From Sphaerosporella brunnea (Eukaryota; Ascomycota; Pezizomycetes; Pezizales; Pyronemataceae), in the NCBI GenBank assembly GCA_008704415.1, contig VXIS01000003.1, positions 186,001-250,000 of the forward strand: DNA of 64,000 bases, given 5' to 3'. Numbering within the stretch: position 1 is the first letter of the stretch; every line of letters starts with the position of its first letter. Both the position numbers and the translations under genes were made by a program. The notes under the pieces are model-generated. The model ran no database searches. It was given only the letters and a program-made list of their open reading frames with translations, and had not been told where the DNA came from. This document shows, piece by piece, positions 11,601 to 61,600 of the stretch.

Positions 11601-14600
11601 TGACTAGTGGTTTTTGGGTGGAATGATTGGACGTTGTTGGGGACACGTTTTGACGCCGTCTCCGGGTTTTCGTCCTTTTTCAACCGATGATAGATAGTTC
11701 GGCTGCCTGGCGGGCACGGTGGGCGTCTCGATGTCACGCAGCCCATGAGGCTTTAGCCATACAATCGTCAGGCCGCGCCACGAAATGAAACGGCGATTCC
11801 AGAACCGGTGCTGTTGGGTGTGATGTTCCAGGCGATGTTCATGCTGGAATAGCTGGACACATTGACGTGAACGGACCCTGTGTTTTCCTGAACTAACGAC
11901 GCCGACGCCGGCTCTAGGGTGGGTGCCAGCACTGGCTGCGGGTTGTCTGTTGCCAGCCCAGATTGAGGGAGGCCAACCCTGTCGCAATCAATGGTTTCGC
12001 CCATGAGCTGGGGGACCTTGCCATGATTGTCATTCTCCGTGGTGCTTGTCGGGGTCAATGGATAGGTTTCTGCTCATGATGTTAGAGCGGATGCTCTTGT
12101 TGGGGTCTGGTGGTTCACCTTGCTCTTGTGCTTGCGCTTGCACTTGAACAGTTTCTTGGAATGGCCTGACTGACCTGAGGCTGTAAACGAAGCGACGCAA
12201 GGCGAGAGCCAGCGGCGGTAGTTGATCCTACAGACGGATTTGCTGGGCTTTCAGAACGTATTTATAAGTGTTGATTGCTAGGTCTGGAGCCTAGCGCTTG
12301 GTTCTGCCATACCGTGCTCTACCAAACCCGCCTGTCCCACTCCCGGCCTGGAACGGCGCGACCAGTTGCAACAGATCGGACGGCGGTAAACCGCAAACTG
12401 TTTCTGCACGACCCAGAGGAGACCGTGCTCTAAGCTGCTGCGTGTCGGCCGTTTCTGACCCGTCACTCCGCTGGTACCGCAGCACGCAATATGGTTGTTA
12501 GGGCGCCGTGGGCACGATCCTCCCATGGGTATGCGCAGTATGCCTGAAGCAGAACGTTCTGCATGTAAACATATGATGGATGTGGATTCATCCGGCACGG
12601 CGGAGTATAAGTATACGATACCACCTGGTCTCGGGTACTGTACAGCACTCACGACAGGATATGCAGATATAGGTTGCTCGATCAGCTTATGAGATCCGCA
12701 CACTTTTCCTGGAAACCGTCTTCCCAGTCTGATAACCCCCCCCCCCCCCTCTACATAGCTCACGCGGCGCAAACCATCAATGGATTCCATCACCACATGA
12801 CGGACCTTGGTGGCCTGTGGCATCCACTGTGCTATTCTGGGCAGCACACAACATCTACGCAACCATACTGTCCAATCAAACAGCCATCACACATTTTCTT
12901 GCCCGTGAAGGCAGAAAACGGCGTATGCACATTGCCGGTCATGGAGCTCATTGGTAACTGCAGCATGAAACCCTTTGCGTTGAACGCTGAACAGCATGCG
13001 GCTCGGGTTGTACTCTCCGCAGACATACGGCTTTGTGCGTTGGAAAGCTTTCCAGGCAGGTCCAACAAAACAGGACCTGACAACAGCAGAGACCATAGGT
13101 TCCCTTGCATGGCACTCACCATGATTATTCACAGATTTAGCCGGAGGTGCGGTGCATGGAGTGGCCGCGAGGACAGCCATTGTATTTGTGTTCGCAGAAG
13201 TCCATCGTTTGATTTCTGTTCATAACCAATTGAGCCTCGTCACGGCGTACAAAGTCGAGTTTGGCACTCGGATTTGATGGGCAGCGTCTTGCGACTGGCA
13301 TATTGCATAATGAGGTGCAATAGCTGTGCAGAGAGTGACACTTACGGGGTGAGGACCTTGTGTGGGTGGCTGTAGAGAGAGTTCATGTTTGCAGCCTGCT
13401 CGCGTCCAGTTGCGAGTTATTGTGGGACATGTTGGTCTATTTGGTGGGCGATGATCCATTGCTGATACTCGGCAAAACTTCGCGGCAAGAGAAAGAACAG
13501 TCTCCGCAGCCAATTCTTAAGACCGGCATGCTCTGAGCCCGCTCCAAGTTAGTATTTACCCCACACCTCGCCAGAGCCGAATGCAGAGCTCAATTGCAGG
13601 TGCCGGTTTGGGCTGTCGTGATTGCGGCTTCCTCGTGTTCCGTGCAGGTCAAAAATCCACGCTGTCAGGGCAGGAATTGCAATGAATCTTCGGAAATAGC
13701 AAGAGCGGGGATGGCAGCGAAGTGCATCCAAGTGGTTGGTTTGGCAAACGCGTCTGGCCATCAACATCGGTGAAATGTAACAACCAACCACAGGACACCA
13801 TCTAGATGGCTGCGAGATGGGTCTGTTTAACCTTGTACCAAACATAAAATTGCAATGTCTCAGTACATCGCGATGTCTGTTAAATGCCCTGGCCCGCACT
13901 GCAACCGGAGATGCTGGTGGACAGACCAAAACGATAAGCCAGACCTATGCAGGGAGCAAATGCGAGTTATCCGCCCAACGAACAGGAGATTGCGGACACG
14001 AAAAGGGAAGTTGGTGAGCGACACAGCGCAACAACCGCAAGCCATATTGCCTGACAGTACCCCACTTCACGCTTCGATAGCAACGAGCATCTGCTGTGGA
14101 CCAGGATGACACACCGTATGAGTCCGCTGGGAACGGTCTCACCGTCGCGACAGTCGAGTGACGCACCGAGAAACGCGCCAAATTAAATGAAAACCACACC
14201 TGTATTCGACCCGGTTACCTATCGGGCTTCAGTCACCACGATTGGGTTCATTCAATTGTTGCAATTTCTAATCGAGACTCTGTCACCTTTTTGGAAGTTT
14301 CTAAGATCCGCTATCTCAAGGATACGAATAAATAAACACAACAGTTTGTGTACGTGCTGGACATGCAAAATACGAAGAGGATACTCGGAAATCAACCCAG
14401 TGTTGAATGATGACATTCGGTACAATCGGGGCTGCTTGAAAGGCCGTATCAAAGGAAAGGAACCGCGAAAACGATAGGAAAAGCTCGCACCTTTGATGGT
14501 CGACGAGGCCAAATTCATGATGTTATAACATGAGGTCATAGCTCATGGCAAATCCGTAAAACAAGGAAATGATAGTTACAAGACGGAAACATTCTGCCTT

Positions 14601-15921: not shown

Positions 15922-16444
15922 TTCGGTGCCCTTCGAAGCTAGGACTGTCGGGAATAAAGTTGTGCTTGTATCGCAGATGCTCGAGTAGGTTCTTGTTGGA
16001 GGAAATTGCAAAGTTAGTGGCAGTCTTCGTCCTTACGCCAGCTCACACCTGCGGTCAGCGCTTAAACAGATCGCTCTATGCCATCCGGTAGGTCCAGACT
16101 GTCTGGTAGCGCCATGCAGTACAACTTCATCGGTTGTACCTCCATCACAACCAATCGCAGATCTCCACCTCACCCCGATTATGTGGATGCTAGATGCAAC
16201 TTTTCCGTGCCTTATTCTTCCACGGAAATAGGTCAGGGATATGAGATCCATCATGCTCCGCGGGGTTGCTGCCAACGGAAGGAGTGAGGAGATCACTCGG
16301 CACTATCGAAAGGCTTTAGGAGACTGTGGTTTGACTGTCGTCCTTTCCGTTTTCAAAGAGCGCCAAAAGTTCAGTTCAGGAGGGTTGAGAACTCTGGCAA
16401 TAGGCAGAAATTGTGCTGAATATTCAGCTTCGGTGAAGGCTGAG

Positions 16445-17220
16445 CAGTGTTGCACACGAGTCGAGAATTCTCGCCGAGGGTCTTGGTCTGGTGAGAATGG
16501 TGCGGTCTTGAAATACCTCGCCGTGTCTGCAGGGCGCGGGATACTGGATCAATGAAAGCCCTATGGTACACGGTTTGTATGGAGGATGGAATTTTAATAC
16601 ATGAGCGTGTATAGATGCTGGACCCTGAGTATAACAGGACCCCACCAGCCCAGCGTCGCCACACCGAAGGGTTTACGTGCTCATTTAAACGTGTTGAGTT
16701 CTTTTTGAGGCTCCCATCAATGTCTGGATGGCCAACAGGACTACAGGTGGCCTACGTTCAGACCTTTCAAGTTGCGCCAGATGGAAGGCTTGTTTATATT
16801 ATAGTAGTGTTGTCTTGGGAGGTAGTCCCGCGGGGGTCATGTTGATCCCGCAGGTCAACAATAGCTAGAAGCTGTTACTCTCAATGGAATGGGCTCAAAC
16901 TCACAGATATAGGGTATCAAAGGATGCTCTTTCACTCTTTGTCCTCCGATTTATCTCCCCACAGATGGTTCTCTAGTTGGGTGGCCGTGTGCGGGTCCGG
17001 TAGCTCCCCAGGGTCAACAACAGCTGGAAGCTGTTACTCTCAATGGAATGGGCTCAAACTCACACATCTAGGGCATCAAAGGACGCTGTTTCACCCGCTG
17101 CGCTCAGAATTATCCCCCCATAGATAGTTGTTGTTTGGGGTGGCCCCGCGGAGGTCCTGTGGCTTGTCCGGTTCAACAATAGCTGGAAGCTGTTACTCAA
17201 GAACGCCATCAAGCTCGCAT
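16445..17220 (+). mobile_element. hAT-ended repeat unit carrying a 159-bp tandem array
   Basis: The left end 16445-16460 is a perfect match to the hAT terminal repeat CAGTGTTGCACACGAG. It is followed by a GAG/CTC-rich subterminal stretch, then about 300 bp of sequence that is repeated in inverse orientation at about 25390-25910, then the 159-bp array (16857-17190). At 17195-17220 a 26-bp block identical to part of the hAT transposase tail (complement of 1676-1701) follows. The right-hand inverted repeat was not found. The 8 bp before the left end, AGGCTGAG, is also present, complemented, beside the terminal repeat at 27518-27533, so these two loci probably descend from one insertion by later duplication. 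Confidence 0.65.
16857..17190 (+). repeat. 159-bp tandem array, two full units plus part
   Basis: The anchor AACAA(T/C)AGCT(A/G)GAAGC occurs at 16857, 17016 and 17175, an exact spacing of 159 bp twice. Units contain the CAATGGAATGGGCTCAAAC and ATATAGGG(T/C)ATCAAAGGA blocks shared with the other arrays. Confidence 0.9.
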
Positions 17221-17876
17221 GCGCGGATCTCAATGGCGCGCAACAGCGAATTACAAATACCGACGAAGCGGCACCGGATTGCCAGAGACAGCTGGGAAAG
17301 CCGGTTGCTGCGCTGCCATAATGGAGCACCAGTGTCAGGTGGGGTCGATGCGCTGTGACGGGCTCGGATCAGGAAGTATCCCCAGACGTGTACTTGGAAA
17401 TTCGACGCGTTGGGACCCAGGAAGGTACGTTCACGCAGCGCCTGAGAGGATGCGTTGTGAATCGAAGAACGATAACTGCGGGTGTTGAAGATCTGGTTGC
17501 GACCCGTGAAACACATGAAACACCTTCGACAAATAAGCTACTGCCGAGTGGACCACGTACGTGAACCTGTAAAGAGCAGGACAAACCTTTAAGACATGAC
17601 GCGACCGTTATATGGTCGTTGACGAAGGGACCTTTTGTTCTGCTAGGAGACCGGGGATACGGTGTACATGTGGGGCGGCGATACATTGCAACCTGCCAAC
17701 ATGCGGGAGCGTCTGGTTGAACGCCGCGCCTCTGTCTCCACAGGTCGGACAAGCCCACCATTTTCGCGACCGCGGTGCACAATGCAACGTTATCTACCAT
17801 AGTTTCAGACTGAGTGACTGAGCATCAAGAGCAGCGGAACAAGAACATCAAGCATTCATTGATATGTAACAGCACA

Positions 17877-27850: not shown

Positions 27851-28728
27851 TTTTTTTTTTTGTTTTAATCATAATGTATTCGGCCGCTTGCGGCCATGAC
27901 ATATGGTTGTATACAAAAAGTCTTGTGTCTGTTGGGTTGCTTTGCGGCAGTACCAGCACCGGTCGTCCGTCCTGCGCCCGTGCACATCAAGTATGGGGCC
28001 GTAGGTGGCTGGTTCAGGCGGAGCTGGTAGTACCGAGATGCCAGGGCCTTCGAGACCATTGCCGCTGTCTTGTCCCACTTTGCCTTGTGCTTGTAGTAGG
28101 ACTTGGCCCTGATCTGTTGGCTGAGCCATGCATTTCGGTCTCTCGATCTGGCGTTGGTGACCAGAAGTCCGATGTGAGCTACGTAGGTAACCTCAATCGT
28201 GTGTGATGTGTCGAGTTGGTCCCGTGCTGCGGCCTTGGCAATCTGGTCGGCCATCTCGTTGTCCGGGACGCCCTTGTCCGCTGGAATCCATCTGTATTCG
28301 GCGACCCATCCGAGTTGTCGCAGATTGGCTTCGGCCTGGTGAATGCGCGGCATTAGCCATTGGCCTGCACCTGGGTCGCCATGCCGTAAAACGTTTAGGG
28401 CCTCCTGAGCGTCCACAAAGATATACACGGTGCCAGGCGTACTCGGGGGGGTCTCCTGTCGGAGTCAGGACATGATGTGAGCGCTCCGTGAGGCCATCTC
28501 TAGGCCAGCGGCAATGCCAAACAGTTCTGCATCGTAGGCCTCCTTATTGTCGCCTATGTAGCCACTGGTGCGGCACCAATCCTTCATTGTTGCGCTGGTG
28601 CGTGCAACCGCTCTGAAACCACAGTGTCCGCCGTTAGTTTTCACTGAGGCTGATCGCAGTAGAGATGCGGCTGGGGTGGGGATTGGGGCCACATAGTTCT
28701 GCACAAATACAGCTGTAGGTATGACAGG
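27851..28728 (-). pseudogene. Tad1-like LINE 3' end: RNase H, linker and poly(A) tail
   Basis: Minus strand, 5' to 3': a frame at 28734-28465 with GYIGDNKEAYDAELFGIAAG (RNase H Glu block), a frameshift near 28440-28465 beside a G run, then a frame from 28428 with YIFVDAQEALNVL (Asp block), GVPDNEMADQIAKAA (second Asp), the linker SRDRNAWLSQQI and ASRYYQLRLNQPPTAP. A partial CCHC (CWYC) follows. The element ends in an A-rich tail (T run at 27851-27861), as expected for target-primed insertion. The 5' part is missing, and the start abuts a candidate LTR at 28729. Non-functional. Confidence 0.85.
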
Positions 28729-31945: not shown

Positions 31946-33739
31946 TCAACTGAATAGGTTTCTGACCGTGTGGTCGTTTTGACCTACATCTTCATCTGCG
32001 CCCTCCTCCCGGAGGGTTACCAGAACGACCACACCATCATCGTTCGAGACTAGCCCTTTCAATTTTCTGCCAAGGGCGCTGGTGGAACCTTTTCCATACT
32101 TTGCGGCCAGACCTTGGCCGCGGAGAAGGATGCGGACACATTGGTTGGTTCCGATACAAGCCTGCTGCAAGACTGCGCGCTGCCCGATCGCTGCCGGATC
32201 CAAAGTCGCCCTTCCCTCCATTCCGATGGTATCCACAAACAGGAATCGTGAGTTGCCGATCGTAAGCATGTATACAGTGCTTGTGCGCGATGATTGTTGG
32301 TTCATCGTTGTAGCTTCGACTGTCCCTTTGACTGCCAGCACACATTTGATGTCCTCGCGGACGACGGTTCGAATGTCGTCACTTGCCTTCAGGTGTTGTT
32401 GCGGTCTGTTCTCAAGGGTTCGCTGCCGCCGCACGCCGGACTCCATGATCTCGTCGACCTGTATGTGGTAACTCACGCCCTCGCCCGCAGCCGCGATTGC
32501 CATCACGAGAGACTCCACAGCGCAGCTCACGGTGTCGCGCGAAATCGACGTTTTGCCGGTGCCGGAGTAACCAACAGCGATGAAAATGCCGCCGCGACCC
32601 TCTTCGTGCAGCGTGAGGAAATAGTGGGAGACGGCGTCAGCCGCCGCTCTGCGCATCTGTTCAAAATCTCCATCACCCGGCAGGGGGATATACTTGGCGC
32701 CGATATCCCCAGTGCGCTGGTGCAATAGGGTGTTGGAATGAGTTGACAGTACTAGTACATCCGGACAAGGCTCACGTACTGAGTCAGGCACGGCTTCAGG
32801 GATCGGCGATGCTGCAGCGGGCGCCTCCCACCATTGATCGTCATCCTCAGGATCATCATCACGGAAGTTGTCCTCGTCATCATTATCGATGGCCCGGCCC
32901 ACCTCTGGCGAGGAAAGGGGTGAGCGCGAGGACTGCACCATGCGACGTGCGCCTTTCGGGTTCTTCTTGACCGTTTTCCGTATGCTTTTGAATAGCATGT
33001 ACATCAGCCATTCGCGGAGGTTGTCAGAAATGGTACCCCGCCGGCAGAATGCGGCTACAACTTCGTCGCTGAAGTCCCAGGATCCGATAACATCGCAAAA
33101 CCTCTGCTTTCTCTCCGCAGTAAACAACTCGGCAACTGCCAGCTCCTTGCCTTCGTTGGTGTGTTGGAAGTATCGGCGTGTCATGCTGTGCATGTCGATG
33201 TAAACCTTGCTCGTTGGTGTCAACGCGAACGGCTTCAAAAGTTCCTTCACGGGCGGATCGCTCTTGGTTAATGCCCTGGGGCAATCTTCATCGAGGGGCC
33301 GGAGGAACTGCAGTATGAACCGGCCTTGTGCGGGAGAAGGAGTGGTCGCGGGCGTTGCAGGAGCCGCGGCTGCGGGCGTTGCAGGAGGCGCAGTCGCGGG
33401 CGTTGCAGGAGACGCGGGCGGCGTGCTGAGACGCGCATGCTCACGCGCATCCTGACGCAATCGTTCCCAGAGCTCCGCTGGGTCTTCAAACCCTTCATAT
33501 ATCTGGAGGATTTCAGAGGTCATGCACACAAGGATTGTCGTCCTTGCATGCTCGCTGCGGATACAGAACCTAGGGATCTTTGAGACCGTCTTCGGTTCCG
33601 TCTCTGCCCGGGTGGCGATGGAGTAGATTCGGCGACGCCTGAGTCGGCCTTCCATGAATGGGAGCCACAAGTCGAAGTTGCGGCCATCCAGAAGGATGTC
33701 AGTGGCCGGCGCGTGTTCGCTGTCGTCGTCAGACCTCAT
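31946..33739 (-). CDS. Gag-like/kinesin-like fusion protein, 597 aa
   Basis: Intact, intronless, ATG start at 33739 with a TATA box 72 bp upstream. Residues 15-100 resemble a copia-type Gag domain (UBN2/DUF4219 class): LDGRNFDLWLPFMEGRL near the start and a helix ending FEDPAELWERLRQD. Residues 107-137 are an Ala/Pro/Thr linker coded by a 24-bp tandem repeat. Residues 140-260 are unassigned; 285-301 are very acidic. From about 325 the protein follows a kinesin motor: helix before the P-loop, P-loop GYSGTGKT (390-397), switch I NQQSSR (480-485, kinesin NxxSSR), switch II FVDTIGMEG (501-509, keeping D, G and E of DLAGSE), then a block like kinesin alpha4-alpha5 ending GRKLKGLVSNDDGVVVLVTL. The motor is compact (about 265 residues against 330-350) and lacks a neck or coiled coil. 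Microtubule binding is not shown. Alternative: a diverged P-loop NTPase, but the motif order favours kinesin. Confidence 0.8.
   Translation of the reverse strand: MRSDDDSEHAPATDILLDGRNFDLWLPFMEGRLRRRRIYSIATRAETEPKTVSKIPRFCIRSEHARTTILVCMTSEILQIYEGFEDPAELWERLRQDAREHARLSTPPASPATPATAPPATPAAAAPATPATTPSPAQGRFILQFLRPLDEDCPRALTKSDPPVKELLKPFALTPTSKVYIDMHSMTRRYFQHTNEGKELAVAELFTAERKQRFCDVIGSWDFSDEVVAAFCRRGTISDNLREWLMYMLFKSIRKTVKKNPKGARRMVQSSRSPLSSPEVGRAIDNDDEDNFRDDDPEDDDQWWEAPAAASPIPEAVPDSVREPCPDVLVLSTHSNTLLHQRTGDIGAKYIPLPGDGDFEQMRRAAADAVSHYFLTLHEEGRGGIFIAVGYSGTGKTSISRDTVSCAVESLVMAIAAAGEGVSYHIQVDEIMESGVRRQRTLENRPQQHLKASDDIRTVVREDIKCVLAVKGTVEATTMNQQSSRTSTVYMLTIGNSRFLFVDTIGMEGRATLDPAAIGQRAVLQQACIGTNQCVRILLRGQGLAAKYGKGSTSALGRKLKGLVSNDDGVVVLVTLREEGADEDVGQNDHTVRNLFS
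33348..33419 (-). repeat. 24-bp in-frame tandem repeat, three units
   Basis: Units start at 33348, 33372 and 33396, each GCGGGCGTTGCAGGAG plus 8 variable bases. In the protein this is an eight-residue Ala/Pro/Thr period, making the linker between the Gag-like and downstream regions. Because 24 is a multiple of 3, copy-number change would alter linker length without frameshift. Confidence 0.9.
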
Positions 33740-33810
33740 GCTGCGATTGTAGTGTGGAGGTTCTGAGTCTGGAGGTGTTGACTGGATGTGGAGGTCGATT
33801 GGATTGGGCG

Positions 33811-33818
33811 TATTTATA
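33811..33818 (-). promoter_or_regulatory. TATA box of the Gag-kinesin gene
   Basis: TATAAATA on the minus strand, 72 bp before the ATG. Distance and match to consensus are good for a fungal core promoter; it also suggests a short 5' leader. Confidence 0.55.
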
Positions 33819-33829
33819 CTACAGGAGCG

Positions 33830-34590
33830 GGTTCAGATAAACCCGAGGATGCATCCCAACGGCGGCCAGTTTGCGGGGGTACAATGGACTGCGTGGGTGC
33901 AATCCGGGCAGCAGCTTCAATCAACGCCGTCATTGCGCGGGTGCAATAAGAGTGGAATCCAGGGGCGTCAATAGTCCATCCGTCCCACGGGGCGAACGGG
34001 GCCCCACAAAGCAGACCAGGATGGGGCATGACGGTCCGGTTCGGGCCGAAGCCCAGAAAGACCAGGTACCTGAGGGGGAACTATGGGTGCCGGATAGGCC
34101 GCGGTGTTTCATGTACCGATTGCTGGGGCCATGTTCCGACCCTTGCTTGTCGGAACAGTCGCAACTGATCGGCATCCCGGTGATCGACCGAGCTCATTTC
34201 CGAACCTCGCCGAATAGCACCCAGCCGTGGACCACAAAGCGCATCCCGATTCTTCGGCCTGTTATATATGTAGATGCTTGATAGCCCTGGACCGCGGGTG
34301 CCCAGCGGGCCCCATAGTCACCTGTTATGTTTAGTCCTATTTGGGCGCCTGCGGGGTCCCGGTCCTGGCAGACAAATGCCTGGTAAGGACCACAATAATC
34401 AGTCCGGTATAGTCCTAACGTAAACCCGGACTGGACGCCCTATTGACAGCCCTGGTGGGATCAATGTCCGCCGTGGTCTAGGGCGTTTCTTCGATAGAAT
34501 TAGAACTATATCGTTGACGATCGACCAGTATACAAACAGGAAGCTTTAACGGATGCCCACGGTATTTGCGTCACTGGAGATCACGCACAG
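33830..34590. other. Upstream flank of the Gag-kinesin gene with GC-rich repeat
   Basis: About 33960-34110 contains GGGGCGAACGGGGCCCCACAAAG and GGTACC...GGTGCCGGATAGG, a diverged member of the GC-rich dispersed family. No gene is seen. I looked for, and did not find, a matching repeat on the other side of the gene that would make flanking LTRs. Confidence 0.45.
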
Positions 34591-34596
34591 CATTAA

Positions 34597-34704
34597 ATGA
34601 CTGCCACATGCGACGACTACATGCTGGATATGCCTCGAATGGGGGTTGAGCTCAATGTGATTCCAGCGATGCCTGCTGAAGCAGAACGTGTGTTCATTGG
34701 GTGA
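34597..34704 (+). pseudogene. hAT transposase C-terminal relic, 35 codons
   Basis: Reads MLDMPRMGVELNVIPAMPAE then AERVFIG and stop. This is the hAT block MALDIFSIPAMSAEAERVFSG. The fragment closely resembles the one at 11397-11450 (MGIQFNAIPAMSTETEFIF), so both are probably from one subfamily. Confidence 0.75.
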
Positions 34705-42302: not shown

Positions 42303-42693
42303 ATGGCAAACGACGAGCGTTCACGCCAGCGCCTACTAGATCGCATCGACCGTCTTACGTACGATGGCACAATCGATATATCACGCTTTCTCACTCAATT
42401 TGATCAGGCTTGATATCCCATTCTGCCTAAGCGTGCTAAGCAAGTATAATGCGAATCCTCTGCAAATGCATCTGACTGCTGCAAAACGCGCCTGACAATA
42501 CCTTAAGCGGACCTCGAAATACGAACTACACTTCTCATGCGTCATCCAGGCGTCGTGCGTAATAGGCTTCACAGACTCCAACTGCGCAGGAAGCACCGGA
42601 AGCCGGAAATTGATAGGAGGATACGTATCCCAGACGAATAAGGGATTGATATCCTGGGAAACGAAGTCGCAGAGCGTAGTTGCTCTATCAACC
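42303..42693 (+). pseudogene. Copia relic: Gag start fused by deletion to RNase H
   Basis: At 42303 a frame starts MANDERSRQRLLDRIDRLTY and runs to DISRFLTQFDQA then stop, like the start of a copia Gag. From 42454 the plus strand reads NPLQMHLTAAKRA, stop, QYLKRTSKYELHF, then GFTDSNCAGSTGSRKLIGGY and LISWETKSQSVVALSTL, the copia RNase H region in the right order with one nonsense codon. Almost all of pol between them is missing. The relic joins a minus-strand LINE endonuclease at about 42694. Confidence 0.8.
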
Positions 42694-43490
42694 TTGGATC
42701 TTCGATGTGGACCAGTGGCCTCTCGCCAGCCTTGCGGAGCCAGGCGCATTCGTCGTCCTTCTGCTGCTCCTCCGTCATGCCTGCGATATCCCAGCCGGCC
42801 ACCTCCTTGCTGGTCCCCGAGTCCGCCGGGTGGCTGTCTAGGCAGCTCCAGGCCAGGAGTGCGTCGTCGGAGCCTGTCGCATGACCTGGGGCGTCGGCGG
42901 ACCAGTTGATGATGTTGAGGCCTGCGGACGACATCGTAAGGTCGAGGATGGGTGGATTCGCGCCTCGGTCGCATGTAGGCGTATCATTCCGTATGGTAAG
43001 CTCGTGTCGGTCTATGATCCAATGGAGCCAGGCGTCGCCACGACTGGTCTGGCATTTCGGGTCGCATCGAGCGCTGTTGCCGTTCAAGTCGCCGTCTAGG
43101 ACAAAGCTACCGGTATTCAGCGGGGCCTCCCAGTTGTGACGTCAGCTGGGGCGCTGTCTCAGGAAGCCGTCGTTTGCTGAATCGTGGTTGAATTGGTCAT
43201 ATACGTTGATAATGCGGCATCTCGCGCCGGAAGGGGCCACCGCATCGATCGCCATGACGTCGCCGGTGCTGGCTAGGTCCGAGCGGATGGTGAATTTGAC
43301 CTTGGAGTCGACTCGGATCGCGGCGCGCGTCCGGCCAGAGCCGTATATCCGCAAGCCCTGGTGTGTGAATCGGTAGCTCGGGGGTTCTTGCAGCAGAACG
43401 ATGTCCGCTTTGTCGCGGATGGCGATTTCAAGGCAGGCCTGGAGGACTGATCCGGACCTGTTGACGTTGTGCGGGATGCCGCCCGTTATA
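42694..43490 (-). pseudogene. Second LINE ORF2 endonuclease domain
   Basis: Minus strand: LQACLEIAIRDKADIVLLQE (catalytic Glu) at about 43460-43390, then RIYGSGRTRAAIRV, CRIINVYDQFNHD, the DWLHWI-like stretch reading DAWLHWIIDRHELTIRNDTP, CDRGANPPILDLTMSSAG and WSADAPGHATGSDDAL. The central GDFNAH block is damaged (GNSARCDP remains). Related to the copy at 35890-36540 but distinct. It stops at about 42694 where copia sequence begins. Confidence 0.8.
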
Positions 43491-44239: not shown

Positions 44240-44520
44240 TACGCTACACGAAAACGAAGGGAACGCAGGTTTATCTCCTGCTTGATCAGTGGCCTCAACC
44301 TCGGACGTTTCCCCGGCTTTTGCAACCCGTTGTGCGCGAGTGATCACGTGGAGCATGTTTGGCAGATCATTCTCCTCTCAGTTGAGCTTTTTGCAGCCAG
44401 AATGCGAGGATTGGTCCTGCATTCTTCCTTCCACGCTGCCCTGAAATGGCGCGCGCTATAATAGCCCCATTTGCCTGCTTGGGTATCTGAACACCCGCAT
44501 TCCACCTTACGGTGTGATGG
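44240..44520 (+). repeat. Repeat R, partial copy (second half)
   Basis: Matches 28975-29262 from GGAACGCATGTTTATCTGCT to the end, with more divergence towards the right, where it passes into GATGGN satellite at about 44521. Confidence 0.65.
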
Positions 44521-47075
44521 GATACGGATAGCGGCTGGAATGGCGATGGGTATAGGAACAGCTGCGGCGGTGACGGCAGGGATGGGGATGGGTATAGGAA
44601 GAGCTGCGGCGGTGACAGCAGGGATGGGGATAGCAATTAGCACGGGAACGCCCAATGGGTGGGGATTGGGATAGCGCCCGCTGTGGCGAGGTGACCAAGT
44701 TGGCAATGGGGATGGGTATAAGAGCTGGGTTTGCGCTTGCACTCGGTATGAGGATGGGGACACCGACACTGTACAACGATCGTGATGGTGATCGGCATGC
44801 GACACTGCTGGCGGCAGCGATAGGCATCCTTCTGCCGGTGGGGATACAGATGGCGCTCGAGATGCCGGTGGGGATGGCGATGGTCACGGCTATGGTGACA
44901 GCATCAGCGATGGGCGTCCGGATACTGATAGCGGTGCCGGTGTTCATAGTTATTGAGACGGTGATGACGATTGCGAGCCCGGTTGCTATAGAGTCGGCGG
45001 TGATACATGGGTGGGGACGGCAATAGCGATAGTGGTTGCGTTGGCGAGAGCGCTTGATATGGATGGCCATGCTGATAGGAATCACCATATGGATGGGGAC
45101 GGTGAAGGTGGTAGTGATCGTGATAGGCAGAGTGATGGCGATTCTGATAGGAAGTGTCATACGGATGGGGATGGTGAAGGTGATTCCGGACAGTGATAGT
45201 GATGATCATGGGCATAGTGATAGCAATGGCGGTGGGTTTGGGATAGTGCCAGCGATCATGGTGGCGCAGGGGATTGGCATGTTCCCCGCTATGAGATAGA
45301 GACCAACATTGACGATGCGGGCGGCGATGTGGACGACGCGGCGTTGATGTTACCGAAGGAAATCAGATCTGGATGGCGATAGTCATAGGGACGGCGCTGT
45401 GTATCGCAAGAGCTAAGGCGGTGATCGGGATTGGGATGGGGATAACGAGCGGTGATGGGGAGAGGAATTCGGTGGGGCATGGCCGCATGGGTTGCGAACA
45501 TCTTCAGTAGTGGCAATAGGGATGGGATCGTGATGTACAGGGCAATGGTGAACGGCCGCAGTGGTAGCCATAGGTATGAGGACGGCAATGTCGATCGTCA
45601 CCGCGATTGGGAGGGGGATGCGGTCAGCGATTGCGATGGGGATGGGGATGGCAACAGCCGCAGTGGTGGCGATAGGGATGAGGATTGCGATGAGGACGGC
45701 AATGTCGATCGTCACGGCAATGGGGATTGGGATAAGGTCAGCGATTGGGCTGTGGATGGCGACAGCCACATCGTACAGATAGGGATAGTTTTGTCGGTGG
45801 AGACACGGATGGCACTCAAGATGGCGGTGCGGATGGTGATGGTCACGGCGATGATGATGGTCACAGCTGGTGAGGTCGTCAGATGGGCATCAGACTACGG
45901 ATAGCGGTGTCTGTGGTGATAGTCATGGATACTACGATGGATATGGGGACGCGGATGGGATGGTGGCTGCCATAGGGTCAGTAACACCTAGGGCAGTTAT
46001 GTATGGCTGGGAATGGCAATGGCAACGGCAATAGCGATAGTGGGGCGTTGGGAATAGGGATGGGGATTTGAACCGCCGCAGTGGTGATGGTAGGGATGGG
46101 TATCGCGATGACGACGTCAATGTTGATCGTGACGTCGACGGGGATGGGAATTGGGTCAGCGATGGGGATGGAGAGACCGACACCGTACTGCGAGTGTGAT
46201 GGTGATTGTCATAGTATACTGCTTGCCGCTATCGCCATCGCCGTTGCCGTCCACGCCCATTATAGGCGGCCCATATATCACCGCGGTAGCTGTTGCTAGC
46301 CTATCGCAATCGCCGTCCCCATCTCCATCGCGGTCTCCATCTCTATGACCACCGCCGCCGCAATCAGTATCCCGATGCCCATCGCCGGGACCATCACCAT
46401 CCAGACCACCATCATCATCCGCACCGCCATCTCTGCATCTCCCCCGGCAAACCAATCGCTGTCGCTGCAGCCAGCGGTGTCATGCGCTGACCACCATCTC
46501 AACCGCAGTACGTTGTCGCTGTTGCTATCCCGATCGCCATCCCAATCGCAATCGCTGACCCAATCCCCATCCCCACCGCTGAGACGATCGACATTGCCGT
46601 CTTCATCGCAATCCCCAGCGCTATCGCTACCACTGCCGCTGTTCCCATCCCCATCGCTGTCCCAACCGCCATTGCTATTACTCACTATCAACATCCAAAA
46701 TCACATTCACCTCCCCATCGCTATGCCAATTCATATCAGTATCGCCATCACTTAACCTATCGCTATTGCCATCACTATCAGTATCGCTTTTGCCGTCACC
46801 GGCATTGCTATCACTATACCTATCACCAGCACTACCGGTTTCCGAAAACATCTCCACCACCCCATACCGTGGATCACCGTATCCCTCTCCCCGCCGCCGT
46901 CGTTATCGTCGTCCTCATACCCATAGCGATCGACATTGCAACCATATATCCATCGTGTTCACTATTCCTATCCCTATCTCGAACCCCATTGCTATCACTA
47001 TGCCACTATCGCTATCCGAGACCACTTTGACCATCCCAATCCCTATGACGACGCCCATCAGCATCGGCATCGCTT
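44521..47075. repeat. Large hexanucleotide-derived satellite with a strand switch
   Basis: From 44521 to about 46230 the plus strand is GATGGN-rich; from about 46245 to 47075 it is ATCNCC-rich, i.e. the same satellite in the opposite orientation. The switch lies near GTCATAGTATACTGCTTGCC. Blocks such as GGTGAAGGTGATTCCGGACAG and ATACATGGGTGGGGACGG correspond to landmarks in the larger satellite at 58640-62928. All frames of 60-217 aa on both strands here are repeat artefacts with no start or stop logic. Confidence 0.85.
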
Positions 47076-47081
47076 TCAAAA

Positions 47082-47352
47082 GCTCGTCGCTAGCTCCGAC
47101 GGCAGACCGGTAGACCAATCAAAGCGGAGGCGATTCACTCTGACTCGATGGATGAGTGAGCAACACGCAAGGGTTTCTTCTGGCTGCTTGCGCTCACCTG
47201 CGCTTGTATCCTCTTGCACCCGGAGCGGTTGGGGCTGCAGCCAGCCACCGCAACCACGACCACCACCCCAATGGACCTTACCGATCGGTGAGAGGAGTCT
47301 GTTCCGGTTGCGGTGACTAAACAGCAGAAGCTGTCACTCAAGGGCATCTACT
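47082..47352 (-). pseudogene. Copia RNase H fragment, inverted copy
   Basis: About 250 bp aligning with the complement of 57845-58112. In the minus strand the remnants of the QSTMESEMVASAWIGL block are recognisable at nucleotide level (CCAATCAAAGCGGAGGCGATTC) but degraded. It borders the satellite, as does its counterpart. Confidence 0.65.
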
Positions 47353-55934: not shown

Positions 55935-57690
55935 TCAAGGCACCCGATAACCTATTCCCGTTTCTTTCAAAAACTTCATAACAGCCTCCGCCTCCCTTTC
56001 GTCCTTGAATAACTTCCTGACCGGCCAGTTGACATGTCCTTTTAACCGCAGCTTCTTCCACACCTCCTTCAACATGTCCCTTCGCTCCTGTCTGAACACT
56101 TTGCATTTCCCAAACAAATGTCCTCGGGTCTGCCGCATCCCCTCATTGCAGTACCAACATTGGTCTGGATCCCTTTTTCCTATCCTTTTTAGATAGGTAC
56201 CGATCAGTGCGTGTCCAGATGCATTTGCATAAACACCACTGTCTGTTTCTTTCCTGTTTTCCTGACTATCGCTCGTAACTTCCTGCGCTTGCGCAGTTCA
56301 CATACTGGTGACGTCTCTAATCGTTCGCGCAGCCACTCTGCAGCTACTCTCGATTGCGCTTCCTTCGCGGCGCAATGAACGTTTACCAGTGATCGTAGCT
56401 TGATAATTGTCCGCATTTTTCGTGTGGGCATCGCTTCCCTGGCCGTCGCCGAAGCCAATTCGTCCGCCCTTTCGTTGCCTGGGACCCCATTGTGAGAGGG
56501 AACCCATCGGTACTCAATGGCGGCTCCCTTGTCAATGAGCTCTTTCTCACAACGGTAGAGTCACCTTGTCATCGCTTGACCCGGTCCTTGGCTATCTTCC
56601 TGGATCCTCGTAAGTGTGGCTTGGGAATCGGTCCAGACTCCCACTTTGTCGTTAATGATCTGTTCGCGCTTCGCCGCAATCTTGATGGCCTGAACCACTG
56701 CATACAGCTCTGCGTCGAACACCTCTTTGTTGTTGCCAAGGTACCACCTGTCTCCCACGTAGTCTTCGGCTTCCTTGCTATACCATGTCACGGCTGCTCC
56801 CACATGTCCGCCATCCACTCTGGAGCCGTCTGTCCACAACATGGTTGCATCGCTCTCGTCGACATACGTTGCGCTATGCAGCGCCACTCCCTTCTCCTCG
56901 ACAATGATGGTGCCCCTCGTCCTTTCTCCTTTCGGGGGTACCGTGACTTCAATGTCTTCAAACGACCGTTCTCCGCGGTTAAACATATTGGCAACTTCTC
57001 GCCTATTCTCCTCTCCCGGGATGGTCGGTTTTGGTGCCAGCTTGGCCCAGAAGCGCTCGATTCTTCCCTGAATAATAGCTTCTGCTGGGTACATTTGGCT
57101 CTCAGCCAAAGCTATCACAATCGGTGCGGATTTGAACATTCCCGTTGTTGATTTTGCCTGTTTGTTGATGATCTTTTGGACATCCGCTGCTCTGGTCTTG
57201 ATGACCTGCTGCTTGCCCATGATTCCTATTAGCTCGATGCCGTAGGTTGCTATTGATTGTACTACCGCGCGTTGGAGGTTTCCAACGCTAGCTGGTGGCA
57301 GACCCTTGGTGTTGCATAGCCGTTGGATACGGGCCTGCTGTCTTTTTGCCTTTTCGATCCAGACTCGATGGTGTTCCTTCAAGCTCAATTTGTCGTCTAG
57401 CCACACTCCTAGCCATCTGACTTCCTGAGTGGAGAACTTTATAACGTCGCTGCCTACCCTTATGTCCTGGGTGCGGGCCCTCTGGCGTTGCCTCCGGCTT
57501 CGTGTGAACAGGAGGGCCTCGGTCTTTTCCGTCTCAAACATGGCAGCGTTATCTCGTGCCCACTCTGTCGTTATCTTTGCGCACTTTTGGAGCCGCCTCG
57601 TGACTTGTCCTACGTCGTCTCCTCTCACGACCCAGGTAACGTCGTCCACAAAGGATAGCCCTAGACTGTCGGAACGTTCCGGTGGAGCGC
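55935..57690 (-). pseudogene. Best-preserved LINE 3' half: reverse transcriptase end, RNase H, CCHC
   Basis: Minus strand. The copy starts just before the catalytic box SDSLGLSFVDDVTWVV (57690-57630), continues through the thumb (KTEALLFT, RWLGVWLDDKLSLKEH) and into RNase H: MLWTDGSRVDGGHVGAAVTW (Asp), NNKEVFDAELYAVVQAI (Glu), GVWTDSQATLTRI (Asp), YRWVPSHNGVPGNERADELA (His, Asp). It then ends in CWYCNEGMRQTRGHLFGKC, a CX2CX7HX4C knuckle. Only two lesions are visible: an in-frame TGA at 56561-56563 (CGA to TGA would explain it) and a frameshift near 56215. The 5' half of ORF2, with the endonuclease and the first polymerase motifs, is absent, the usual outcome of LINE 5' truncation. Confidence 0.9.
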
Positions 57691-57844
57691 CGTGGAGTGC
57701 TGAACAGTGAAGCGAGGAGGGGTTACTACCTCCCCAAACGTTCTGGTGGACAATACCATCACCATCTTACCACCTTCCTCTGATTGCCATCTATAGTAGA
57801 CTCGCGTGCCCCCTCCGATTCATACAATCGTCAACACCTTGGTT

Positions 57845-58112: not shown

Positions 58113-58522
58113 CGTTTCAACAAATCGAATGCTACCAACGATTGCGGGAATGCTGGCGGTGTGTAGTTTGTAACCGGGGGCAGTGCTGTGTTCGCAGCCG
58201 GCACCCCAGCGCAGCCACCACCGCGGATCAAGAGTGCCTCGCCAGCCAGCACAGGCGGCCCCCCAGCTAGGCAATTGCCATGCACGCCCTGTGCGGAGTG
58301 CTGACAAACAACCTGAGCCGCGCTGATGCGGAGCCCAGCTTCACGTCTCTCGCGCGGCACACTGGGAGAGAAAGCTTGGAGCGCGCCACTATCGTGTGTG
58401 CTGCATTGCAGTGAGCGAGTCCGCGAGATTGCTCATGGCCCCGCCCCGGATGTCATTCCGCGTTGTGAGCGTCGTCTTTCGTTCACTCGTCGTACTGGGA
58501 AGGCTGCGTACTGAGGTGTGTT

Positions 58523-58575
58523 TCCGGTGCCTTGGAATTTTGGCGCAGTACAGGTCAATATACACGTTGCCACAC
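58523..58575 (-). repeat. Start motif of repeat R, partial
   Basis: TTGGCGCAGTACAGGTCAATATACACGTTGCCACA is the counterpart of the outer end of R at 63421-63467 (same strand orientation). It lies at the left edge of the satellite, so the satellite here is bordered by R sequence on both sides. Confidence 0.55.
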
Positions 58576-58639
58576 ATTGCAAGGCTGCAGGTTTATTTGT
58601 ACCAGACTATGAGGTCCAAATCCCGAACGCCGAGAGAAT

Positions 58640-61600
58640 CCCCACCCCAGCCGCATCTCCGTTTGTATCCGATTCGGCGATCACCACCGGCATCGCTGTC
58701 CCAATACCCATCGTTGTTTCTATCGCTACCCCATCCACAGCGCCATTGCCGTCTTCATCACCATCCCATCGCTATTGCCACACCCGTAGCTCTTCCAATA
58801 CACAGCGTCACCGCAATCACCATGCCCATCAAGATGTAATACCTGTCTGGAACATCAATGATTCTTTGCCCGTCCCTGTCCCCATCTCCGCCCGCATTGT
58901 CAACGCTGGCGCCATCATACAGATAAGTCACAGTCTCCCTATTGCCACCGGTGTCGCTATCCCATAGCTATCCACATTCCAATGCCCAGCGCCACCAAGA
59001 TCAAAATATCTCCTTCGCGGTCACTACTCCAAATTCCACTGCCATTGCAATCACTATGTCTATCATCATCACTATCGCTGTCTGAAATCACCTTCACTAT
59101 CACCAGCCCTCTCACACTTCGCATCAGCCTGGCCATCACCATCACTATAGTTATTGCCGTCCCAACCAATATATCACCCCCGCAGCTGTTCCGAACCCTA
59201 TCGCAATCGCCATCCCATCGCCGCCCCCATCTCCATCGTGGTGTTCATTACTATGACGAGTGCCGCCGCAATCAGTATGCAGAGCCCAATCAGTATGCGG
59301 ATGCCCATCGCCGTGGCCATCACCATCCGCACCGCAAAGACCATCCACACCTTCACCATCCGTATCTCCACCGGCAAAAACAATGCCTATCGCTACAGCC
59401 AGCAGTTATCCTATGCCGATCAGGATCACGATCGCTGTACGGTGTCAGTGGCTCCATTCCCATCGCTGACCCAATCCGCATCCGCATCGCCAGCTTCACC
59501 ACTATCGCCACAACGGGGGCTATACCAATCACGGCGCATATCCGCGTTGCCGTCCTCATCGCAATCCCCAGCGCTATCGCCACCACCATAGCTCTTCCCA
59601 TACACAGCGCCACCGCGCTGTTAGCATCCCCATCCAGATCTAATTGCCGTCGGCAACCACAACCCCGCTTCGTCTGCATCTCTGCCCGCATCGTCATTGC
59701 CGGCGCCATCAATTTCGGTATACCGATCAGTCATAGAACCCTATCGCCACTGCGGTCGCTATCCACATTCCAATCCCCTGCGTCACCAAGAACACCATAT
59801 CCCCATCCCTATCCCCATCGCCGTTGCTATCACTATGCCTATGATCATCACTATCGCTATCTGAAATCGCCTTCACTATCCCCATCCGTAAGACAATTCC
59901 TATCAGCATCGCCATCATTATACCTAGTGCTATTGCCGTCTCCATTGCCGTCCCTACCAATGTATCACCATCGTGCTGTTTCTAACCTTATCGCAATCGC
60001 CAGCGCCATCTCCATCGCCGCCTTCATCACTATGCCCGCCGCCGCCGCTATCAGTATCCCCATACCCATCGCCGTCCCCATCCCTATCCTCACCGCGCGA
60101 TCCGTATCTCCACCCCCAGAACCGCCCCTATCGCTGCCGCCAGCAGTATCCCAGGCCGATCGTCATCACGATCGAAGAACAATATTGCTGTCGCCATCCC
60201 CATCTCCGTCCCGATCGACATTGCCGGCTTCATTCCTATCGCCACGACAACCCCAATACCGACCCCACCCATATCCGCGTTATGTTGCCGTCACCATCCG
60301 GACAGCCATCACCATCCGCACCGCAATGACCATCCACACCGCCATCATCCGTATCTCCACCGGCAAAACATTCCCTACCGCCACCGCCAGCAGTATCCTA
60401 TGCCGATCACCATCACAATCACAGAGGGCAATGCGCATCCCCATCGCCATCCCCATTTCCGGCTTCACCACTATCGCCACAGCCGGCGCTATGCCAACCC
60501 CACCCATTTGGGGTTGCAGTCCTCATCGCAATCCCTATCCCTAACGTCACCACTGCGGCTGTTCGCATCCCCAACGCCATTGCTATTACTATGCCTATGA
60601 TCAGCACTATGCCTATCGCCATTGACATCACTATCACTATTGCTGTTGCCGTCGCCATTGCTGGGCGCAGCTGTTGCTATCGCTACCGCAACCAGCGTCG
60701 CAAATCCCATCACGGTCTCCATCACTATGCCAACCGCCACCGTGATGAGTATCCCGATGCCCATCGCTGATGCCATCACCATCGCCGTGCACATCACCAT
60801 CCACCCCGCCATTTGGAGTGCCATGCGTATCACCACCAGCAAAACAATCCCCATTGCTGCAGTCAGCAGTAGCCTATGCAAATCATCATCACACTCGCTC
60901 TACGGTGTCGCTGTCTCCATCCTCATCGGACTGGCTGAACTTATCCCATCCCAATTGCGATGCCGCTCCACGTTGCAGTCCTCACGGCAATCCCCATCCC
61001 GATCGCCACCACTGCGGCTGTTCCCCTCCGGATACCTATCCCCAACGTCATCGCTATCACTATGCCTATGATCATCACTATCGATATCCAAAATCACCTT
61101 CACCATGCCCATCACTATGCCAATTCATATGAGTATCGCCATCACTAACCCTATCGCTATTGCCATACCTATCACTATCGCTATTGCAATCACTATCCCC
61201 ATCGCTGTTGCCATCGCCATTGTCATTCCCAGCCATATATCACCGCCGTAGATATTGCCCACCCTATGGCAGTGTCCTAATCTCGATGGTAGTCTCCATC
61301 ACGATGACCACCGCCATAGCTATCACTATCGCGATGCCCATCGCTGATGCCGTCACCATCGCCGCGACAATCGCCATCCACACCGCCATCTCGACCGCTA
61401 TCCGCATCTCCAACGGCAGAGGTATCCGTACCGCCAATGTCATAGGCCAATCGTCATCAATATCGCCCTAAGTCCATCCCCATCCCCATCGGTGACCCAA
61501 TCCCCATCCCTATCGCCATGACGGTCTCCATCACTATGACCACCACCGTCGCTATCAGTATCTTAATGCCCATCGTTGATGCCATCACAATCGCCGTGCC

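Follow-up and report, generated by a model that had tools for sequence, protein, structure and literature searches.

Hosts have repeatedly domesticated Gag proteins: Arc and the RTL genes are Gag-derived host genes, and the p22 protein of Ty1 is a truncated Gag. Kinesins for their part occur with many different tails, and Pack-MULEs and Helitrons are known to capture genes. We know of no motor-type ATPase residing in the same chain as Arc, an RTL protein or Ty1 p22. Full-text searches of openly licensed PMC papers returned, among the matches listed, no description of a Gag and a kinesin in one chain; in a review on Arc (PMC8486535) the word kinesin occurs four times. The locus described here, from the genome of Sphaerosporella brunnea, joins these two known ancestors in a combination that is new to us.

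The gene lies within the stretch of 64,000 nucleotides analyzed here (the window), which is part of a 400-kb contig (bases 186001-250000) belonging to an assembly of 50.6 Mb. It is a single frame of 597 codons on the minus strand (31946..33739), running without interruption from an ATG at 33739 to a stop codon ending at 31946, and the plus-strand reading of the same bases contains many stops. A preliminary description of this DNA had recorded the uninterrupted frame, giving no strand, along with three motifs in the order of a kinesin P-loop, switch I and switch II; a pattern search recovers each of these once, in that order and at the positions then reported, namely GYSGTGKT (residues 390-397, 32549..32572), NQQSSR (residues 480-485, 32285..32302) and DTIGME (residues 503-508, 32216..32233), all likewise on the minus strand. 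All three are invariant in a second intact copy of the gene, on contig C238, and the switch I motif is also present in a further copy, C479. The encoded protein opens with a region resembling the N-terminal part of copia-type Gag (residues 16-98, 33446..33694, minus strand), recognized with a profile of gag regions from the same genome and with PF14223, which is followed by an alanine/proline/threonine-rich linker coded by 24-base tandem repeats (residues 107-138, 33326..33421, minus strand), a middle domain (residues 141-285, 32885..33319, minus strand), an acidic linker delimited by copy comparison (residues 286-305, 32825..32884, minus strand) and a C-terminal domain that hhalign, BLASTP and Smith-Waterman comparisons point to as a kinesin-derived ATPase (residues 322-597, 31949..32776, minus strand). 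A length-variable stretch follows the acidic linker and is longer by 23 residues in C238. The protein had been read as consisting of two parts, and both ends of that reading stand; what it overlooked is the middle domain, which has the lowest dN/dS of the whole protein and is its most conserved part, and for which a Pfam search of protein pieces gave no match. AlphaFold2 run on the single sequence, without homologues, returned pLDDT values of 35 and 39 for the full length and the C-terminal domain, which are too low to indicate a fold.

With the N-terminus taken in isolation, PF14223 (Retrotran_gag_2, to which UBN2 and DUF4219 are presumably related) matches residues 29-96 at an E-value of 0.012 and 15.5 bits, and the N-terminus of C238 at 13.9 bits, against a cut-off of 27. 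The genome contains 117 matches to this model at E<=0.1, partly below the cut-off, and from three of these regions (C128, C603 and C299) a same-genome gag profile was constructed. In hhalign this profile aligned with residues 17-98 with a score of 48.8, the best of 300 shuffles reaching 21.7. The copia locus C128, in which gag is followed by what by eye is a protease-like stretch, is matched both by the N-terminus of the window protein (E 0.00125) and by the Pfam model (E 3.2e-11), and this closes the chain of homology. Judged by these alignments, the N-terminus is Gag-derived and homologous to copia Gag. The preliminary description had marked residues 15-100 as Gag-like; homology to the N-terminal part of Gag, with its hhalign score well clear of the shuffles, stands, but a complete Gag does not, as the PF14223 alignment covers only positions 1-71 of 172, the second half of the domain is not recognizable by Pfam, and a pattern search found no CCHC zinc knuckle in either intact copy.

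The ancestry of the C-terminus is less readily apparent from curated profiles. A Pfam search with the whole protein listed only AAA_16 (E 0.055) and Retrotran_gag_2 (E 0.11). With the C-terminal 276 residues Kinesin came fourth (E 0.76, 9.1 bits), and on a sub-stretch it reached E 0.14 and 11.6 bits, against a cut-off of 29.3; the model was listed for one of seven pieces and for one of five pieces, never for pieces of C238, and AAA_16 or AAA_7 ranked above it, all below cut-off. Searches of PDB sequences with the protein gave no kinesin match. Since neither Pfam nor PDB gave a significant kinesin match, we built profiles from the same genome for kinesins (8 pieces), myosins (5), AAA (8) and Ras (5), and compared them with a two-copy profile of the motor part. 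The kinesin profile scored 45.3 in an alignment of 100 columns that begins just before switch I and reaches as far as beta8, a value attained by none of 300 column shuffles (maximum 32.7). When the motor part was divided 30 columns beyond the P-loop, its first and second portions each matched kinesin on their own, with scores of 31.9 and 35.2, respectively, again reached by none of 300 shuffles (maxima 25.3 and 26.0). The AAA, Ras and myosin profiles scored 34.4, 33.8 and 29.6 over 16, 16 and 22 aligned columns, at the P-loop only, and upon removal of the P-loop part they fell to 15.9, 14.6 and 11.8, values within the range of the 60 shuffles made for each. As regards the myosins of this genome, we observed on contig C105 a myosin head match (12673-14565) followed, after about 1.4 kb, by a Chitin_synth_2 match (15986-17605), the fungal myosin-chitin synthase layout, which marks the genome as that of a fungus.

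Pairwise comparisons single out one host kinesin, L001. In a BLASTP search of an 8-sequence database the motor part of C238 matched it at E 6.2e-6 (its residues 60-264, a 205-residue alignment from the P-loop to beyond beta8) and that of the window copy at E 6.1e-5 (residues 60-173). Smith-Waterman z-scores against L001 were 7.5 for the window copy and 9.1 for C238, with 0 of 300 shuffles as good in each case, those against L008 were 3.4 and 4.9, and the remaining kinesin pieces ranged from -0.3 to 3.9. Among the eight host kinesins L001 alone beat all 300 shuffles for both copies, and L008 did so for C238 only. By its best solved relatives L001 is a kinesin-1, 1goj (which we take to be Neurospora kinesin) scoring 538 bits against 337 for the next; its lead may reflect an origin of the domain from kinesin-1, or kinesin-1 may merely be the least derived. 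In sum, HMMER/Pfam searches alone yield no significant kinesin hit, an outcome that the preliminary description had named as speaking against its reading; the more sensitive comparisons overturn it, and the kinesin likeness first put forward on the basis of the motifs is instead carried by the same-genome profile-profile tests, which beat both shuffles and rival P-loop families. By these comparisons residues 322-597 are kinesin-derived, with homology demonstrable despite the sub-cut-off Pfam scores.

The motif inventory of this domain is uneven. The P-loop conforms to the GxxxxGK[ST] pattern and switch I to the NxxSSR pattern, albeit with the usual following SH replaced by TS, and switch II retains the D, G and E of DLAGSE in a different spelling. 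Pattern searches in both intact copies found neither SSRxH nor DLAGSE, nor the NKSL of alpha4 or the PYRxSKLT of L12/alpha5; the place of the last, as positioned by the hhalign alignment, reads KYGKGSTSALGRKL. HTVRNLF closes the stretch of the frame that the copies have in common and, judged by eye, lies where alpha6 would begin; hence the neck linker and stalk are absent. From what is established for kinesins, a domain of this kind would probably bind and hydrolyze nucleotides, whereas its binding to microtubules is doubtful and it would not walk processively. Given that the ATPase motifs are kept while the microtubule-binding signatures are missing, walking on microtubules by this domain would be doubtful. 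The term motor, as used in the preliminary description in the sense of a walker, is accordingly not supported, since the SSRSH histidine and the DLAGSE, NKSL and PYRxSKLT signatures are missing and the frame ends early.

What had been presented as one gene is a dispersed family. A same-genome protein search gave 20 matches, which merge by place with those of further searches into 11 loci on 8 contigs: the window copy, C223 at 169 kb, C238, C479, C605, C67, C14, two in C77 (one at 26-31 kb and a fragment at 72 kb) and two in C440. Of these, C440 at 5 kb is the weakest (E 0.0019, and 1.1e-8 in a 60-frame search); the count excludes the copia locus C128 as well as six further rows, weak at E-values of 0.06-0.79 (C466, C168, C123, C510, C212 and C76). 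Only two of the 11 loci, the window copy and C238 (L029:2485-4368, 628 aa, 81% identity with the window copy), have a frame that is open throughout; the remaining nine are cut or contain stops. Both C440 loci show clear motor-like pieces only. Among the decayed copies, C14 has 38% identity in the middle part and, in a search covering 60 frames taken from 10 loci, contains Gag-like (E 9.5e-5), middle and motor pieces, the last being weak (E 0.003 and 0.008). As all parts occur there in the same order, the fusion is probably old in the lineage. Beyond this genome, three protein searches, two of which scored 7997 and 7994 candidates sharing most words, returned the window's own protein only, an absence that says little, and viral contigs offered neither a relative of the gene nor a kinesin with which to deepen the profile. 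Several local features of the copies were also seen. The promoter region and first codons of C238 are tandemly duplicated (L029:1813-2154 and 2284-2633), the upstream piece containing a stop; the C77 fragment (C77:72101-72600, L066:205-276) is a piece of about 75 bases of the 3' coding end that is cut on both sides and adjoins a TTTTG repeat; and the 5' end of the C479 copy is abutted by a dispersed repeat of about 140 bp (L030:1709-1850), with 34 other rows among the 47 matches listed. Frames that by eye are ankyrin/F-box-like occur near decayed copies (L032:1265-2440 and L030:5678-6409, both on the minus strand).

Comparison of the window copy with C238 gave a dN/dS of 0.40 (bootstrap 95% 0.29-0.54). 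By part the values are 0.57 for residues 1-100, 0.43 for 101-140, 0.295 for 141-285, 0.34 for 286-325, 0.40 for 326-440 and 0.44 for 441-597, while six pairs of intact and decayed copies gave 0.20-0.50, with the middle domain at 0.20 in pairs with C479. All of these are below 1, and therefore both the Gag-like and the kinesin-like parts are constrained, the Gag-like part least. A neutral simulation in which the observed 223 substitutions were placed randomly preserved an open frame in just 11 of 5000 runs, with a mean of 6.1 stops. The second open copy, the dN/dS of 0.40 and this simulation together establish that the frame is more than a product of chance.

Sequence conservation between the copies extends upstream of the coding region. 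The proximal 5' flank (33740..33959, minus strand) is common to other copies and contains, 72 bases before the ATG, a putative TATA box, TATAAATA (33811..33818, minus strand), which is identical in three of the five other aligned copies (C238, C223b and C479) and altered in C77 and C605. A distal 5' flank (34455..34625, minus strand), also common to other copies, is parted from the proximal one by an insert at 33960-34454. Leaving this insert aside, homology between the copies begins about 240 (C605) to about 550 (C77) bases before the ATG, and the flank alignment revealed no common 5' end. The insert itself measures 495 bp and is absent at that place from the five other aligned copies; it has imperfect terminal inverted repeats, CAGGGCTGTCAATAG and CAGGGGCGTCAATAG, and an 8-bp near-duplication, GATCCCAC/GATTCCAC, and by its layout would be a hAT-like MITE. 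At the other end, the copies do share a boundary: CACACGGTCAGAAACCTAT (31954..31972, minus strand) comprises the last bases common to the window copy, C238 and C67, i.e. to three of the three copies reaching there, beyond which the sequences diverge and the two intact frames come to a stop in unrelated flanks. The C77 piece at 72 kb, which carries the last coding stretch, breaks off before this point. Allowing up to 3 mismatches, the end motif has 16 matches in the genome against 11 for a reversed control; three of the 16 belong to the family, and five others that were inspected belong to another repeat. We also considered a missing 3' exon, but an intron at the shared end is unlikely because none of the three copies has a GT directly there and their flanks differ at the DNA level. 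As the promoter region was copied too, retrotransposition of mRNA is unlikely, and the common 3' end favors a defined element end.

Direct signs of a transposon structure were sought around the gene. No direct repeats join the two 6-kb flanks of the window copy, nor do the flanks of C238 (2.5 and 4.6 kb) have one in common, which agrees with the earlier remark that no LTRs surround the gene. Two inverted matches, of 33 and 36 bases, involve the window flanks, and in both of them one arm falls within the insert. A short match between the element ends was considered as a terminal inverted repeat (TIR) and rejected, as comparison of the 3' end with five 5' flanks gave nothing better than shuffles. 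Ten of the 40 listed frames of at least 170 aa in the neighborhood were scanned; none contains a copia pol, and all that they yielded were remnants of LINE-type RNase H, endonuclease and RVT_1, the nearest about 3.5 kb away. Such broken LINE-type frames lie at 27865-28464, 42569-43141 and 56561-57766 of the window. Long frames of low complexity occur there as well, at 44300-47100 and 58300-60600; they are rich in I, P, S, H and R, have a strong GC skew and look like degenerate tandem repeats.

We consider it fairly probable that the gene is a repeat-borne, lineage-specific Gag-kinesin chimera acting as an ATP-switched Gag-like protein. In it the N-terminal half of a copia-type Gag is fused, via the alanine/proline-rich linker and the middle domain, to a degenerate kinesin ATPase. 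The protein is predicted to bind and probably hydrolyze ATP, and its Gag part may self-associate or co-assemble with Gag proteins encoded by the numerous copia elements of the genome, such that the ATPase could serve as a nucleotide-controlled switch or a weak tether on the Gag assembly, rather than as a processive walker. Copies would have spread at the DNA level along with their promoter region, via some carrier, with most of them then decaying. Transport along microtubules is possible but disfavored. A domesticated host gene family, in which a Gag-derived host protein gained a kinesin domain and then underwent ordinary duplication and loss, is somewhat unlikely; truncated Gags can act in a dominant-negative manner, and such a family might, for example, do so against copia particles. 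The two intact copies under purifying selection amid decayed ones, the lack of a detectable LTR and the 117 copia Gag matches as possible targets would fit this alternative, but 11 loci on 8 contigs, of which nine are cut or decayed, with a common 3' end in three of three copies, are more like the behavior of a repeat.

The repeat-like dispersal, the Gag part and the constrained ATPase motifs could be accommodated by a transposon with its own motor, an element, non-autonomous or formerly autonomous, whose Gag the fused motor would carry along microtubules. This is improbable, given that neither LTR nor TIR was found around the copies, that no copia pol occurs in the ten scanned frames, and that the microtubule-binding signatures are absent with no room for a neck; as for mobility in general, the absence of a TIR and of a common 5' end among the copies leaves no direct sign of it. 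That the C-terminal domain might be another P-loop NTPase (AAA, STAND, myosin or G-protein), resembling kinesin by chance at three short motifs, is suggested by AAA_16 and AAA_7 coming first in Pfam, albeit below cut-off. It is nevertheless very improbable, because the AAA, Ras and myosin profiles match the P-loop alone and sink into their shuffles without it while kinesin does not, and because switch I, switch II and the C-terminal motor part follow in order within the 100 columns of the kinesin match. The slimmest chance attaches to a pseudogene or a chance-open frame in a transposon graveyard, devoid of a protein product: the broken elements around the gene and the decay of nine of the 11 loci are of this kind, but the substitution pattern, the two open frames and the rarity of open frames in the neutral runs speak against it.

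If the ATP-switched chimera that we favor were to build particles, it might constitute a new protein machine, a Gag-derived particle or assembly with a kinesin-type ATPase in its building block, though we regard this tentatively and as rather unlikely. Were it true, capsid-like assembly, disassembly or cytoskeletal delivery would be driven by ATP within one chain, and the machine would have become dispersed over the genome of a fungus as a family of genes; a live ATPase would make it a natural link between a capsid-like assembly and a cytoskeletal-type engine. Even without walking, the family illustrates how far a kinesin may drift while its nucleotide motifs remain selected, and such a Gag-kinesin family escapes curated profiles.

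Set against the known systems, the C-terminal domain resembles the kinesin superfamily in having the P-loop, NxxSSR and DxxGxE in order and in C238 being alignable from the P-loop to beta8. It differs in its identity of ~22-24% with L001, in the Gag part at its N-terminus, in the lack of a neck linker in the frame, and in a distance of 90 residues between P-loop and switch I; among the seven host kinesin pieces showing both, this distance is 112-123 in six and 190 in L006. The copia-type Gags are approached by residues 17-98, which align with their N-terminal part, including a DPAELWERL stretch common to C128, whereas there are no LTRs and the frame is free of protease, integrase and reverse transcriptase. 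With Pack-MULE and Helitron captures the family has in common dispersed, mostly decayed copies with a piece derived from a host gene; unlike these it has no TIR, its 3' end is by eye unlike a Helitron end, and the full frame is selected. With Arc, the RTL genes and the truncated Gag p22 of Ty1, finally, it would share a piece of Gag working without a complete element.
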